From a bacterium (GTDB lineage Bacteria > Bacteroidota > Ignavibacteria > SZUA-365): DNA of 64,000 bases. The position numbers and the translations under genes were made by a program. Under the pieces are notes generated by a model that saw nothing but the letters and a program-made list of their open reading frames with translations, did no database searches and was not told where the DNA came from. The stretch spans positions 1-64,000 of the forward strand of contig JAHLLD010000005.1 of the NCBI GenBank assembly GCA_020444325.1. Direction: 5' to 3'. Positions 30,733-42,897 of the stretch are shown in pieces (positions within the stretch are counted from its first letter, which is position 1; every line of letters begins with the position of its first letter).

Positions 30733-31611
30733 CTATTTCACGGCTTTCTTGATCGCCGCTTCATCGAAGCCGATGGTGATACCTTTCTTTCCTCTCACCA
30801 GGGGACGTTTGATGAGCATGGTGTCTTTGCTGAGCGCATCGACAACCTGCTCTTTGTTCATCCCGTCGACCTTGTCTTTCCATCCTCCGGTCTTGTACGA
30901 ACCACCGCTGGTGTTGAACGCCTTGCGGTAGCCGTCCATACCTTTGAGTGCTTCGCGCAGCAGCGTTTTAGGCGGCTGCTCTGTTTTCAGGTCCTTGAAG
31001 ACATACGGTACCTTGTTGCCGTCGAGGAACTTCATTGCCTTGCGGGTGGTCCCGCAGGTCTTGATGCCCCAGACTTCGGTACTTGCGGCTCGACCGCGTT
31101 GCGTCGCTTTTTTATGGGCCGCAGACTGGTTCTTTGCTGCGGCCCTTCTAGGCGAAGCTTTTTTCTTGGTCGCTTTTTTCGCCGTACTCTTCTTGGCAGG
31201 GGCTTTCTTCTTTGCGGCAGCCTTCTTCGGCGCCGCTTTCTTCGTGGCCTTCTTCACTGCTTTTTTCGCTGCTGCTTTTTTCGGCGTTGCTTTCTTCACA
31301 GCCTTCTTCGCAGCTTTTTTCGGCGCAGCTTTTTTCACGGCTTTTTTCACGGTTTTCTTCGCGGCAGCCTTCTTCGGTGCAGCTTTCTTCGTGGCCTTCT
31401 TCACCACTTTCTTCGCGGCAGCTTTCTTCGGTGCGGCTTTCTTCGTGGCCTTCTTCACCGCTTTCTTCGCCGCAGCTTTTTTCGGCGCAGCCTTCTTCAC
31501 TGCTTTCTTCGCAGCCTTCTTCGGCGCAGCTTTCTTCACGGCTTTTTTCACCGCCTTCTTCGCCGCGGGTTTTTTCGCAGCGGGTTTCTTCGCTGCTGCT
31601 TTCTTGGCCAT
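30733..31611 (-). CDS. Histone H1-like Lys/Ala/Pro-rich tail fused to ArsC/Spx-family domain
   Basis: 292 residues. The ATG at 31611 follows AGGAGG with 7-bp spacing. Residues 1-176 are almost only Lys, Ala, Pro, Val and Thr in repeats of AAPKKAAAKKAVKKATKK, as in eukaryotic H1 tails and bacterial Hc1/AlgP-like DNA-binding proteins. Residues 177-292 form an ArsC/Spx/YffB thioredoxin-like domain: EVWGIKTCGTTRKAMKFLD with Cys186, the half-way KAFNTSG, and LIKRPLV near the end. Spx members bind RNA polymerase alpha as redox-sensing regulators; ArsC members reduce arsenate. I infer a DNA-associated protein with a thiol-redox domain. I know of no described protein with this fusion. A 15-bp palindrome lies upstream at 31646-31660. 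Confidence 0.85.
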   Translation of the reverse strand: MAKKAAAKKPAAKKPAAKKAVKKAVKKAAPKKAAKKAVKKAAPKKAAAKKAVKKATKKAAPKKAAAKKVVKKATKKAAPKKAAAKKTVKKAVKKAAPKKAAKKAVKKATPKKAAAKKAVKKATKKAAPKKAAAKKKAPAKKSTAKKATKKKASPRRAAAKNQSAAHKKATQRGRAASTEVWGIKTCGTTRKAMKFLDGNKVPYVFKDLKTEQPPKTLLREALKGMDGYRKAFNTSGGSYKTGGWKDKVDGMNKEQVVDALSKDTMLIKRPLVRGKKGITIGFDEAAIKKAVK

Positions 31612-38465: not shown

Positions 38466-38516
38466 CGCAACTTACCCAACGGCAGGTGGCACCCTGCAGA
38501 TATACCGATCGCAGAA

Positions 38517-38599
38517 TATGCAGTTTCTGCATAATCTTCAGCGACTGTTTATGCACTTTCTGCATATTTTCCCAGCATTAATTATGCAGTTTCTGCATA
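38517..38599. repeat. Array of three 17-bp palindromes at exact 33-bp period
   Basis: TATGCAGTTTCTGCATA at 38517-38533, TATGCACTTTCTGCATA at 38550-38566 and TATGCAGTTTCTGCATA at 38583-38599. All share TATGCA-N5-TGCATA. They are separated by two unrelated 16-bp spacers, so the repeats are exactly 33 bp apart (about three helical turns). They lie between htpG and the convergent VWA gene, ahead of a terminator. Each could be a protein-binding dyad or a small RNA hairpin. Confidence 0.85.
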
Positions 38600-38606
38600 T
38601 TTCAAC

Positions 38607-38640
38607 GCAAAGAGGCTGTCCCCGTGGACAGCCTCTTTGC
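38607..38640. terminator. Strong hairpin between htpG and the convergent VWA gene
   Basis: Perfect 15-bp stem GCAAAGAGGCTGTCC (38607-38621) / GGACAGCCTCTTTGC (38626-38640), loop CCGT. Flanking T-runs are modest. Confidence 0.8.
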
Positions 38641-38668
38641 ATTTCAGCCCCTCGATTCTTCGCTGTTA

Positions 38669-39880
38669 TCAGCGCACCAGCATCATGCGGGATGTGACGA
38701 CGTCGCCGCTGCTCAGGCGATAGAGGTACATGCCGCTGGCAAGACCTTCGGCCTGGAACCGGACGTTATACGAACCCTGCGCCCTGAAGCCGTCTACGAG
38801 CGTGGCAATGTGCCGGCCGAGAATGTCGAAGACTTCCAGGGTGACATGCTGCGGGGCGCTGCTGCTGATTGTGAATGGAATGCTGGTTGCCGTTCCGCTC
38901 GTGAAGGGGTTCGGCATGTTCTGCTCCAGTGAAAGCGATGCCGCGGCGGCGCTGACCGGCTTGACCGCGGTCACGCCCTGCAGGGCAGGCTCACTGAAAC
39001 TGGCCGTCGCTTCCTCTGCGCAGGCCTGTACGCGCACTTCCAGCGTGTGAATGGTTGCATCGGGATCGGGGGTCTTGAATGCGACGGTGTGCTCGTCGAA
39101 TCCGCGTCCCATGAAGTTGGCAACTTCCGTAAAGATCTGCTGCAGTTCGGATGCATTCGGTGTCTGGAAGTAGAGCCCGCCGGTCTGTGTCGCAATCGTG
39201 TCGAGGACGTAGCCGTTGATCGCACTGCCGAGTCCGATGGTAAAGACACGAATGTTTTTCTGCTGTGCGTAGGCGATGACATCGCCCGGGCTGCGAACAC
39301 TCGCATTGTCAGCACCATCGGTCATGACGACGACAGCCTGCTTGGGATTGACTCCGTTGGTCGAAATTTCATCGATGCCAGCATACATTGCATCCCAGAC
39401 GGCGGTAGCGCCACCGGCTGGCAGTCCGTCAACTGCAGTTGTCAGAAGCGGGGTGAGCGTCGTCATCTGCTGCGCCATGTTGATGGACTGGTTGAACCAG
39501 ATGACGCAGGCTTCGTCGACCACGCTGTCCATGAAAGCCACGAAGGCCTTGCCAGCGGCCTTGGCGCCGGCGTTGCCTGCGCCCGACATACTGCCGCTGG
39601 CATCGAGCACAATTGCCGCGGAAAAATTGTTGCGCACCGCGGGAGAGGAGCTTTCAACGATGGAAAATTCCTCGACGGGCTTTCCATTGTCCGTGATCGT
39701 GAGGTCTGATGGATTCAGCATGTACTGCACTTCCCCGTCGCAGGTAATGTACAGCGTCAGATGTGCCTGGGTGTTCCCCTGAATTTCATGTATCGTCGTG
39801 ATACGTGCAGTGGATTGTCCCCAGGCTGAAGTAGTAAGGATCATTGCGGCAAATACAATGATACTCCCAAAGAATTTCAT
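38669..39880 (-). CDS. Secreted von Willebrand A protein with T9SS sorting domain
   Basis: 403 residues. Signal peptide MKFFGSIIVFAAMILTTSAWGQ. Residues ~85-260 are a VWA domain with intact MIDAS (DASGSMS; T and D in VVVMTDGAD), which binds metal and protein ligands. The C-terminal ~85 residues form a T9SS type A sorting domain (LEQNMPNPFTSGTATSIPF ... LASGMYLYRLSSG). Predicted to be surface-exposed or released. It is the last gene of the sigma/anti-sigma operon, 78 bp after the VWA lipoprotein, whose VWA domain is closely similar (GGATAVWDAMYAGIDEI versus GGTAMWDGMYYAMLEL), indicating a local duplication. Confidence 0.9.
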   Translation of the reverse strand: MKFFGSIIVFAAMILTTSAWGQSTARITTIHEIQGNTQAHLTLYITCDGEVQYMLNPSDLTITDNGKPVEEFSIVESSSPAVRNNFSAAIVLDASGSMSGAGNAGAKAAGKAFVAFMDSVVDEACVIWFNQSINMAQQMTTLTPLLTTAVDGLPAGGATAVWDAMYAGIDEISTNGVNPKQAVVVMTDGADNASVRSPGDVIAYAQQKNIRVFTIGLGSAINGYVLDTIATQTGGLYFQTPNASELQQIFTEVANFMGRGFDEHTVAFKTPDPDATIHTLEVRVQACAEEATASFSEPALQGVTAVKPVSAAAASLSLEQNMPNPFTSGTATSIPFTISSSAPQHVTLEVFDILGRHIATLVDGFRAQGSYNVRFQAEGLASGMYLYRLSSGDVVTSRMMLVR

Positions 39881-39958
39881 AGAGATACCTCCTCGTTAAA
39901 GGTAGATGGGACGGTTTCCTTTTCGGGATGTCGTCCCTGGCAGTGTATTACCGCGTGA

Positions 39959-40702
39959 TTAGGGTCGTCGGAGAATTGCCGCGATCTCACGGTATATGCC
40001 GTTGAGGGAAGACAGCAGGGGTTGTGCGTAATGTCTTCCGCCAGTGATATCCGTGATATTGCGCAGCACATGTTCGTGACTTTTCAGGCGCATGGTGATG
40101 GTAAACACCATGATGCCGTTGCGTTCCGCATAGTCGAGTACGTTCGCGGGTGTACCGAGGCTGCTGGAATTGTCGTCACTGTCAGTAATCATGATGATTG
40201 CTCTGCGCGCATGAGTGGCGCGTGCCGTGAGCTCGAGCATGGCGTAATACATGCCGTCCCACATGGCGGTGCCGCCCGTCATCGGCAGCGCATTCACCGC
40301 AGCGCGCAGTGAATCGACATCCGTTGTGATATGCTGGCGCACCGTGGTGACATTGTTGAAATACACCACGGCCCCTTCATCCACGCTTCCGTCGAGCGAA
40401 TCGAGCAGTGCCTCCGAGGCTTTCCGCAGGTACTGATTCATCGCCCCGGAAATGCTGCCGCTGGCGTCTAGTACGAGCACTGCGGAAAAATGCGAAGGTA
40501 CCCAGGTCCCGCTGGTAGTATCCACCGGAATATCAACCGAAACTGCCGTACCGATGGAGTCACCGGGCAGAATCGCAATATTGTCCTGATACTGATTCCG
40601 CGGCGTGTCGATATCCAGTGGAGAATCGCAGGCGCTGACAATGAAAAGAATTGTCAACGCCGGCAGGAAAAAGGATAGTATGGCAGAACGTTTAGAACTC
40701 AT
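39959..40702 (-). CDS. VWA-domain lipoprotein
   Basis: 247 residues. The lipoprotein signal ends LFIVSAC with lipid Cys25. A VWA domain with MIDAS DASGSIS and IIMITDSDD fills most of the mature chain. The start codon overlaps the last 11 bp of the anti-sigma gene, so translation is coupled. No sorting domain; predicted to stay anchored in the periplasm or outer membrane. With its exported paralogue downstream, it suggests adhesion or ligand-sensing outputs of the sigma-factor locus. Confidence 0.9.
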   Translation of the reverse strand: MSSKRSAILSFFLPALTILFIVSACDSPLDIDTPRNQYQDNIAILPGDSIGTAVSVDIPVDTTSGTWVPSHFSAVLVLDASGSISGAMNQYLRKASEALLDSLDGSVDEGAVVYFNNVTTVRQHITTDVDSLRAAVNALPMTGGTAMWDGMYYAMLELTARATHARRAIIMITDSDDNSSSLGTPANVLDYAERNGIMVFTITMRLKSHEHVLRNITDITGGRHYAQPLLSSLNGIYREIAAILRRP

Positions 40703-41870
40703 ATGAGAGACCGTAGGTCAAACCCAGTTTTTCGGTTCTGAACCAGTTATTCTGGAATTTGTACATAAGGACGCTGCCTTCTGCGCCCACCACAAATGCG
40801 ATGCGGTCGAAGGGCTTGAGCTTGAGTCCGGCTACCGCGCGACCGAGGGGACCGAGTCCTACACCCTGATCGAGATTGAAAGCGCCGCCGGCCTGAAGTT
40901 GTACGAAGGGGTAGACGTGGGGGAGCAGGGCATCTCCGTTAAACTGGTATACCGCCGTCGCCCAGTACGCCAGTGGATTTTGCTCGTACCCCACGTCTTT
41001 ACCCGCTTCGATTCCTTGCGTCTGTATTCCGTTGAAGCGCTGTGGAAAGGCCTCCTGGCCGGTTTCCACGCCAATGCTGTGATGATCTGACAGTGCGTAG
41101 AACACACCGAGGTTGACATTGCGGAACCAGGATTCCGACTGCGACACGATCGCGGGGGCCGGATACGACCGCAGGGCGACATTGCGTGCCTGCAGGGTGA
41201 GTCCGCTCGGCGTCGGCAGAAGATCATAGAAGAACACCTGCTCGTGCGGGACTGAACGAGCATGCGGATCACCGCTCACATCCTTCAGTCCGTCGATCGG
41301 ACGCAGATTCAGCTTTCCTTCAGCCTTCGCGAGTGCTGCCAGTGCCGAGGGCAGTGCCTGCGGCTTGACGGGGACCGCTGCCACTGGCGGCGCGGCCGTC
41401 CTTGCAACGGGTGTGCTCACGGCAAGATCACTGAGTGCAGGAAGTTCCTGCACGGTCAGTTCCGTTGCGGGCGAGGAAATCACACGCTCGGTGTTCTGCG
41501 AAACTGGTGCCGGGAAGAGCATATACAGCATCACGGCAGCAGTTACGGCGAGCATCGCCGACCCTCCCGAAACCCAGATGCTGCGCAGCATGCTGTTTGC
41601 AGCAGGTGCCGCAGCGGCAGCGCTGGACGTGGAGGGAATACTGAAGCCGAGTGCGCCGAAGACGGCGGATGTCGCAACCGCAGGCGGGGTGAACGCTTCC
41701 GTGTCGTGCTGTATCGCCTTGCGGATGGCGAGATTGTCCTGCATTTCCCCGCGGAGGTCGGCATTCTCCGAGAGCCTGCGGAACAGCACCTCCTCATGGG
41801 CGCCGTCGAGCTCTCCGTCGAGGAAAGCATGCAGCATGCGCTCGTCCATAAAATCCTGATGTGCATTCAT
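40692..41870 (-). CDS. Membrane anti-sigma factor-like protein with C-terminal barrel-like domain
   Basis: 392 residues. The N-terminal ~60 residues (MLHAFLDGELDGAHEEVLFRR ... RGEMQDNLAIRKAI) have the look of an anti-sigma domain but lack the zinc-binding HxxxCxxC. One membrane helix at about 97-120 (WVSGGSAMLAVTAAVMLYMLF) follows. An Ala/Pro-rich periplasmic linker leads to a ~190-residue beta-rich C-terminal region ending in aromatic YGLSYEF, like outer-membrane barrel proteins (NLGVFYALSDHHSIGVETG, FVQLQAGGAFNLDQGVGLGPLGRAVAGL). It lies 33 bp after the ECF sigma gene and overlaps the next gene. Inference: it binds the sigma factor inside and senses the envelope outside. Confidence 0.8.
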   Translation of the reverse strand: MNAHQDFMDERMLHAFLDGELDGAHEEVLFRRLSENADLRGEMQDNLAIRKAIQHDTEAFTPPAVATSAVFGALGFSIPSTSSAAAAAPAANSMLRSIWVSGGSAMLAVTAAVMLYMLFPAPVSQNTERVISSPATELTVQELPALSDLAVSTPVARTAAPPVAAVPVKPQALPSALAALAKAEGKLNLRPIDGLKDVSGDPHARSVPHEQVFFYDLLPTPSGLTLQARNVALRSYPAPAIVSQSESWFRNVNLGVFYALSDHHSIGVETGQEAFPQRFNGIQTQGIEAGKDVGYEQNPLAYWATAVYQFNGDALLPHVYPFVQLQAGGAFNLDQGVGLGPLGRAVAGLKLKPFDRIAFVVGAEGSVLMYKFQNNWFRTEKLGLTYGLSYEF

Positions 41871-41903
41871 CGTTCTGTACCGAATCTCTAACGTAACATG
41901 TAT

Positions 41904-42476
41904 TTATTCACTGTCTTCACTGAATTCGCGGATGTAAGGTGCCAGGATATCCCGGATTTTCTGCTTTGCCCTGAAAATGCGAACCTTCACATTTGAAAGG
42001 GAAGAATCCACCACCTCTGCTATTTCCGCGTAACTGAGCCCTTCATACTCCCGCAGGATGAATACTTCGCGATAATCGTCGGGTATCATATCCAGCGCTG
42101 TGGTGATCAACTGCAGGAATTCGGATTGTTCCGCGGACTTCGGGGCGACGAGGTATTGGTAATCCTCGAATTCCACCGTCCTTTTTTTGTTCCTGCGGGT
42201 ATTCAGACACAGATTCCTCGCAATTTTCAGCAGGAAACCGGGCACATTCGTCATTTCCCTGTCCTGCTTCGCACATTCGTAAAAGCGAATGAACGTTTCC
42301 TGATACACATCCTGAGCCTCGTCACGATTTCCGAGAAAACGAAGGCAGTAGGCATACACCCGTCCCGAGTACCGGGCGTACAGCTCGGAGAATGCGGCCT
42401 CACTTACCTCCTTTCCGCTCTGAAGGCGGGAAAAAAGCTCGGCGTCCGGTATGGTATGTGACATGTTTCCGGACAT
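41904..42476 (-). CDS. ECF-type RNA polymerase sigma-70 factor
   Basis: 190 residues. Region 2 (AFSELYARYSGRVYAYCLRF, DEAQDVYQETFIRFYE) and region 4 (LDMIPDDYREVFILREYEGL, YAEIAEVVDSSLSNVKVRIF) are intact; regions 1.1 and 3 are missing, as in ECF sigma factors. It directs RNA polymerase to a small set of promoters, usually including its own. A second ATG at 42464 is equally possible. First gene of an operon with the anti-sigma and two VWA genes. Divergent from the flavoprotein operon; duplicated 20-bp sequences lie 40-80 bp upstream. Confidence 0.94.
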   Translation of the reverse strand: MSGNMSHTIPDAELFSRLQSGKEVSEAAFSELYARYSGRVYAYCLRFLGNRDEAQDVYQETFIRFYECAKQDREMTNVPGFLLKIARNLCLNTRRNKKRTVEFEDYQYLVAPKSAEQSEFLQLITTALDMIPDDYREVFILREYEGLSYAEIAEVVDSSLSNVKVRIFRAKQKIRDILAPYIREFSEDSE

Positions 42477-42555: not shown

Positions 42556-42636
42556 TGCGTGCAAGAAATATAACACTTGAGAAACTCGAAGGTTACAGGG
42601 ATTTCTGCGTACCCTGAACTTTCTCTGTTCGATTTG

Positions 42637-42665
42637 TTGACATTAAGCTCAAATCTTGCTATAAT
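42637..42665 (+). promoter_or_regulatory. Perfect sigma-70 consensus promoter
   Basis: TTGACA (42637-42642), exactly 17 bp, TATAAT (42660-42665). Transcription would start near 42672, giving a leader of about 225 nt before the ATG at 42898. This leader holds inverted repeats GGACGAAA (42769-42776) / TTTCGTCC (42809-42816), with an inner CGATG/CATCG and a run of eight T (42783-42790). The 421-bp intergenic region otherwise contains the 20-bp duplication and no gene. Confidence 0.8.
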
Positions 42666-42897
42666 TTCCCGCAACCCTAAGTGAATAATTGTTAGTGCTT
42701 TGAGGACTGTCGCCCCAAAGCGTCCCAAGCCCTCTGTCTTTCCAGGGACAGCAGTATTTGCAGTTTCTGGACGAAAACCGCGTTTTTTTTCGATGGTCAT
42801 CGCGTCAGTTTCGTCCATTTTGGAGCTCTGCGATTCACTGCAAACCGGGCCGCGGCACATTTCAACTGCACCACAGAGAAAGGTGCGTAGAGCCAGC

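Follow-up and report, generated by a model that had tools for sequence, protein, structure and literature searches.

How might a single protein chain link the outer membrane to an ECF sigma factor, and what part do the VWA proteins encoded beside it play? These questions are raised by four minus-strand genes at positions 38669-42476 of the 64,000-nucleotide stretch analyzed here (the window), which lies in an assembly of 4.65 Mb in 25 contigs. The genes encode a sigma factor, an anti-sigma-like protein, a VWA lipoprotein, and a VWA protein with a T9SS tail. Dual membrane-spanning anti-sigma proteins have been described in Bacteroides thetaiotaomicron, where Dma1 and Dma2 act with Das1 and Das2, and are defined by an anti-sigma domain, a transmembrane helix, a disordered tether, and a C-terminal barrel (PMC13088901). 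Our reading of the locus is that it may encode a Dma-type trans-envelope sigma switch with T9SS surface proteins as its output, and we place the probability of this reading at about 0.68.

The preliminary description had given this gene order with a 33-bp gap between the sigma and anti-sigma genes, an 11-bp overlap between the anti-sigma and lipoprotein genes, and a 78-bp gap between the lipoprotein and VWA-T9SS genes. All of these values were exact when the open reading frames were re-read. The neighborhood search that it had proposed found the sigma, anti-sigma-barrel-like, and VWA order again in seven relatives. The full order of sigma, anti-sigma, VWA lipoprotein, and VWA-T9SS genes is present in genomes G001, G002, G004, G006, G008, G009, and G011, with anti-sigma identities of 48-69%, and also in the more distant G005, while in G012 only the VWA lipoprotein gene stands behind the sigma/anti-sigma pair. 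Since the order recurs in these genomes, in part in the case of G012, it is not due to chance. At other distant loci the sigma and anti-sigma genes are retained with different genes downstream. The pair was found again in 33 related loci examined, and the 11-bp overlap is conserved in several relatives. Relatives of the anti-sigma-like protein, which is 392 aa long, were present in 26 of the 61 genomes searched, and the genome that contains the window has at least five sigma/anti-sigma loci of this type.

A hairpin with 18-nt arms and a 4-nt loop (38604..38643, no strand assigned) lies between the operon and htpG and may serve as a bidirectional terminator. A terminator scan of the region scored none, this hairpin included, so the end of the operon is placed by the hairpin alone. 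A palindromic repeat, TATGCAGTTTCTGCATA, occurs close by at 38494-38601 in copies spaced 33 nt apart; with at most one mismatch there are 271 copies in the genome, against 0 for the control, which marks it as a REP-like intergenic element. Elsewhere in the window, a 292-aa ORF (30733-31611, minus strand) combines a Lys/Ala-repeat, histone H1-like region with what appears by eye to be an ArsC-like domain.

The sigma factor (190 aa; 41904..42476, minus strand) matched Sigma70 regions 2 and 4 well above the Pfam cut-off. Its match to the sigma70-ECF superfamily was above the NCBIfam cut-off, and its remaining NCBIfam matches were below cut-off. The VWA lipoprotein (247 aa; 39959..40702, minus strand) has a VWA domain above cut-off (56 bits) and a lipid cysteine at residue 25, in SAC. 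Immediately at the lipidation site is the segment CDSPLDIDTPR (40598..40630, minus strand), which is conserved behind Dma-like genes. The last gene (38669..39880, minus strand) encodes a 403-aa protein with a signal peptide, a VWA domain that is again above cut-off (52 bits), and a T9SS type A sorting domain (38687-38914, minus strand; TIGR04183, 31.9 bits against a cut-off of 23). The MIDAS residues (DxSxS, T, and D) are found in both VWA domains, in the lipoprotein as DASGS at residue 79 followed by T and D.

Upstream of the sigma gene is a predicted autoregulatory ECF promoter, TGTAACCTTCGAGTTTCTCAAGTGTTA (42571..42597, minus strand), which lies 94 nt from the start codon and was recognized by its conserved sequence and spacing. 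Seven orthologous operons have kept the promoter in front of their sigma genes, an altered form is present at locus L049, and the spacing of TGTAACCTTC-N11-GTGTTA is identical among orthologs. A perfect E. coli-type promoter (TTGACA-17-TATAAT with an extended TG) lies nearby on the plus strand at 42637-42665 in this Bacteroidota-like genome, and precedes an ORF at 42700 whose product looks like an FAD-linked oxidase.

The genome was searched with the pattern TGTAACYTT-N12-GTGTTA, and the reversed pattern served as the control. With at most one mismatch there were 7 sites against 0 for the control, and with at most two mismatches there were 18 against 10. Genes for exported proteins lay downstream of 14 of the 18 sites but only 2 of the 10 control sites (Fisher p=0.005); export was judged here from a rough signal-peptide score, and the 14 include at least one dubious ORF (L163). 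In addition to the sigma operon, 14 genes downstream of such sites were read over their whole length. The ten products that seemed to have a T9SS tail were scanned, and all ten scored above cut-off for the T9SS sorting domain; three of these also contain VWA domains, and an eleventh T9SS tail (L215) was judged by eye. The other three genes encode a DUF2188 protein, an Ig-like lipoprotein, and a protease-like protein (L210). At least 150 genes in this genome have T9SS tails, which amounts to some 4-8% of its genes if these number about 4000, as estimated. On estimates drawn from this background, T9SS tails at 11 of 18 sites would be unexpected (binomial 1e-11 to 2e-8). The VWA products of the predicted regulon are homologous to the VWA-T9SS protein of the operon (E=1e-36 to 1e-59).

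Across 12 genomes of the family, 40 sites were found against 3 controls, and these sites precede VWA/T9SS genes, an Ig-like lipoprotein gene (in six genomes), and the sigma operon. In G008, which belongs to another genus, 4 of 10 scanned downstream proteins had a T9SS domain over cut-off, a fifth was narrowly below it, and three had VWA matches. Such a conserved ECF-type promoter before both the sigma gene and T9SS cargo genes appears to be new. Two of the non-T9SS genes merit separate mention. Only three exact copies of the motif occur in the genome, and one of them precedes the gene for the DUF2188 protein (L202:5142-5375; 76 bits). The lipoprotein (L203:3369-5327 and orthologs; CSDDSTNEP...) is built of repeated CarboxypepD_reg-type Ig-like domains, and its gene is the one preceded by the motif in six family genomes.

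The preliminary description had offered the VWA proteins as possible outputs or sensors. The output role is favored for the VWA-T9SS protein, as the promoter motif of the operon was found before homologous genes for T9SS-exported VWA proteins, and this protein is best read as an output. These homologs occur as plain predicted regulon members, which would also fit if both VWA proteins of the operon were ordinary surface proteins that share a transcript and take no part in signaling. We consider this rather unlikely, since behind Dma-like genes both the lipoprotein position and the segment are maintained even where the lipoprotein bodies are quite different.

The promoter sites before T9SS cargo genes could also be read by one or more different ECF sigma factors, with the operon as just one target among others. 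These genomes encode many ECF sigma factors, and two fragmented relatives, G003 and G010, have 2 and 3 sites, respectively, at VWA or lipoprotein genes, yet no close ortholog of the sigma factor was found in either (best identity 46-47%). Another ECF sigma factor may therefore read the promoter there, unless the gene is missing from the fragmented assemblies. We nevertheless regard this explanation as improbable. The motif is exact and conserved upstream of the operon's own sigma gene, paralogous sigma/Dma-like operons have different motifs in which GTGTCT replaces GTGTTA, and G005 and G007, which likewise have no close sigma ortholog, have no promoter sites.

Under the preferred reading of a Dma-type switch, the lipoprotein may be the partner of the barrel, and it is the segment at its lipidation site that points to this role. 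In most loci (47 of 74) the gene after the anti-sigma gene encodes a lipoprotein in which the lipid cysteine is the first residue of C-x-S-P-[LT]-D-x-D-T-P-R. The bodies behind this segment vary and include VWA domains, repeat-rich proteins, and domains of ~200 residues that have no Pfam match. The segment was scored with a position matrix built from loci of the window's own family, with the 99th percentile of shuffles as the threshold. It was detected in 16 of 20 training loci, which are from that family, and in 31 of 54 held-out loci of other families, compared to 0 of 54 in antisense; by this scoring, 27 of the 74 loci do not have it. In the genome that contains the window, a paralogous sigma/Dma-like pair (L058:5890-7116, contig C8) is followed by a serpin lipoprotein (382 bits) without the segment. 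This class-wide lipoprotein segment behind Dma-like genes appears to be new.

Lipoprotein surface-export signals (LES) of other Bacteroidota lie directly after the lipid cysteine and contain acidic residues. The SPLDxDTPR segment shares both properties, and could thus be a general signal of this kind in place of an element that partners the anti-sigma protein. The placement of the pattern behind Dma-like genes makes this improbable: a strict DNA pattern of the segment occurred only twice in the genome, both times behind Dma-like genes, and 19 of 37 matches to a looser pattern in 61 genomes lay directly behind such genes. One looser-pattern match in the genome that contains the window (C2:64737, minus strand) is antisense to a VWA gene of the predicted regulon and was set aside as a chance match. 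Going further, the lipoprotein could be an exchangeable sensor head, in which SPLDxDTPR would dock on or through the barrel while the variable domain reads the surface and drives release of the sigma factor for T9SS proteins. We put this extended version forward as a rather doubtful proposal.

The Dma-like anti-sigma protein itself (392 aa; 40692..41870, minus strand) was recognized from its ORF, its relatives, its conserved locus, and its sequence features. The preliminary description had claimed a protein without the zinc motif that has a single membrane helix, a Pro/Ala linker, and an aromatic C-terminal residue, and each of these features is seen in the sequence, the last residue being Phe. 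Residues 1-78 (41637..41870, minus strand) form a putative cytosolic anti-sigma-like domain without zinc ligands, which was helical in the model and for which relatives gave weak family matches. The HxxxCxxC motif that is the hallmark of ZAS anti-sigma factors is absent from this protein and from its 74 full-length relatives (0/74). No significant Pfam match was obtained for the 392-aa protein, with zf-HC2 the only hit (E=0.06) and no Pfam barrel match. The N-terminal domains of relatives gave sub-threshold matches to zf-HC2 in 16 of 34 and to RseA_N in 6 of 34, and a match to RsiW was insignificant. A profile search of the PDB gave no significant match. AlphaFold, run with a 7-row alignment, returned a pLDDT of 36 for the whole protein and 39 for the barrel alone, with residues 1-50 modeled as helical (pLDDT 53-67); the quality of both models was too low for them to be relied on. 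In an alignment of 16 divergent rows, no part was suitable for scanning.

The membrane helix is at residues about 105-123 (41502..41558, minus strand; mean Kyte-Doolittle 1.91 over 19 residues), and 70 of 74 full-length relatives have a helix with a mean hydropathy of at least 1.6. It is followed by a predicted periplasmic tether at residues about 124-222 (41205..41501, minus strand) of about 100 residues, 28% of which are Pro or Ala. From helix to barrel, the tether spans 97-254 residues across the 74 relatives (median 143), and 100 in the window protein. By estimate, 97 residues fully extended would reach ~33 nm at 3.4-3.5 A per residue, so that a tether of at least this length would be enough to bridge the periplasm. 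The remainder, residues about 223-392 (40695..41204, minus strand), is a predicted outer-membrane beta-barrel of about 8 strands that ends in TYGLSYEF. A BAM beta-signal (polar-x-Gly-x-x-hydrophobic-x-hydrophobic) was found within 4 residues of the C-terminus in 68 of 74 relatives compared to 5 of 369 other ORFs of the same loci, a control set that includes spurious ORFs. The weak Pfam matches of relatives were mostly to outer-membrane barrels (OMP_b-brl, OMP_b-brl_2, OprF, OmpA, PagL, and MipA), with OMP_b-brl in 8 of 53. In 26 genomes, no barrel of this type was seen as a stand-alone protein outside such fusions. Despite the lack of a confident barrel in the 7-row AlphaFold run and of a Pfam barrel match for the window protein, the beta-signal, these barrel matches, and the minimum tether length of 97 residues among all members make one alternative highly improbable, namely that the chain ends in a soluble beta domain in the periplasm, like ordinary anti-sigma factors, and does not extend to the outer membrane.

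By architecture, the 392-aa protein would belong with the Dma anti-sigma factors, to which it is likened by description and not by sequence. Like Dma1 and Dma2, it is encoded next to a sigma gene and combines a putative anti-sigma domain, a transmembrane helix, a long disordered tether, and a predicted C-terminal beta-barrel; for Dma the own operon is a main target, as predicted here, and the Dma2 operon also includes a third gene, BT_1557, whose function is unknown (PMC13088901). The systems differ in that VWA genes lie downstream here and the predicted regulon consists of T9SS cargo, whereas vesiculation and PUL genes are regulated in B. thetaiotaomicron (PMC13088901). The host here is an uncultured member of the Bacteroidota near Ignavibacteria. 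In 296 genomes sampled across the phylum, the full-length profile matched solely within the same class, and outside it only the N-terminal domain matched, so that the search gives no evidence of shared ancestry with the Bacteroides Dma proteins. The idea of one continuous chain linking the sigma factor with the outer envelope stands at the sequence level, through the beta-signal, the weak barrel matches, and the tether, but it is not a new arrangement, as the architecture matches the published Dma proteins.

Other systems share parts of this design. The pair M0N98_03760-03761 of Phocaeicola vulgatus and EcfO of B. fragilis also involve an anti-sigma protein predicted to span the periplasm and to end in an outer-membrane barrel, but they are induced by envelope stress from antibacterial toxins and the response comprises NigD orthologs and longer O-antigen; no VWA genes appear in the passages considered for this comparison (PMC9308784). 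In FecI/FecR/FecA, an outer-membrane signal is likewise passed to an ECF sigma factor, but by three proteins that include a large TonB-dependent receptor. The contrast drawn in the preliminary description was borne out: the present locus has one chain with a domain of ~170 residues, and no Pfam or NCBIfam match to a FecR domain or a TonB-dependent receptor was found in the operon. PorXY-SigP with PorA of Porphyromonas gingivalis similarly ties an ECF sigma factor to T9SS and uses a CTD-bearing surface protein in signaling, but there a two-component system acts on T9SS machinery genes, in place of a Dma-like anti-sigma protein with predicted T9SS cargo genes (PMC7712824). Among known systems, RcsF/OmpA of E. 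coli comes closest, with a lipoprotein and a small outer-membrane barrel that act jointly in envelope signaling, and serves as a lead only; that barrel is not fused to a regulator, and docking in the present system is hypothetical (PMC7553776, PMC4942254).

We infer all functional steps of the proposed switch from sequence. At rest, the sigma factor would be kept at the inner membrane by the N-terminal domain. The barrel would read a change at the outer membrane, probably together with the lipoprotein encoded beside it, which would dock to the barrel through its conserved SPLDxDTPR segment. The sigma factor would then be released, whether by pulling, proteolysis, or shedding, and would raise expression of its own operon and of a group of surface proteins exported by T9SS. 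In this scheme, the VWA-T9SS protein would be an output, and the VWA lipoprotein a sensor partner or feedback element.

While the single-chain Dma architecture was already known, the lipoprotein segment that recurs across the class and the predicted regulon of T9SS and VWA proteins appear to be new. Found behind the anti-sigma gene across many families, the segment provides a directly testable candidate partner for Dma-like sensing. The promoter motif defines a testable regulon, and would tie a trans-envelope sigma switch to the cargo of type IX secretion.
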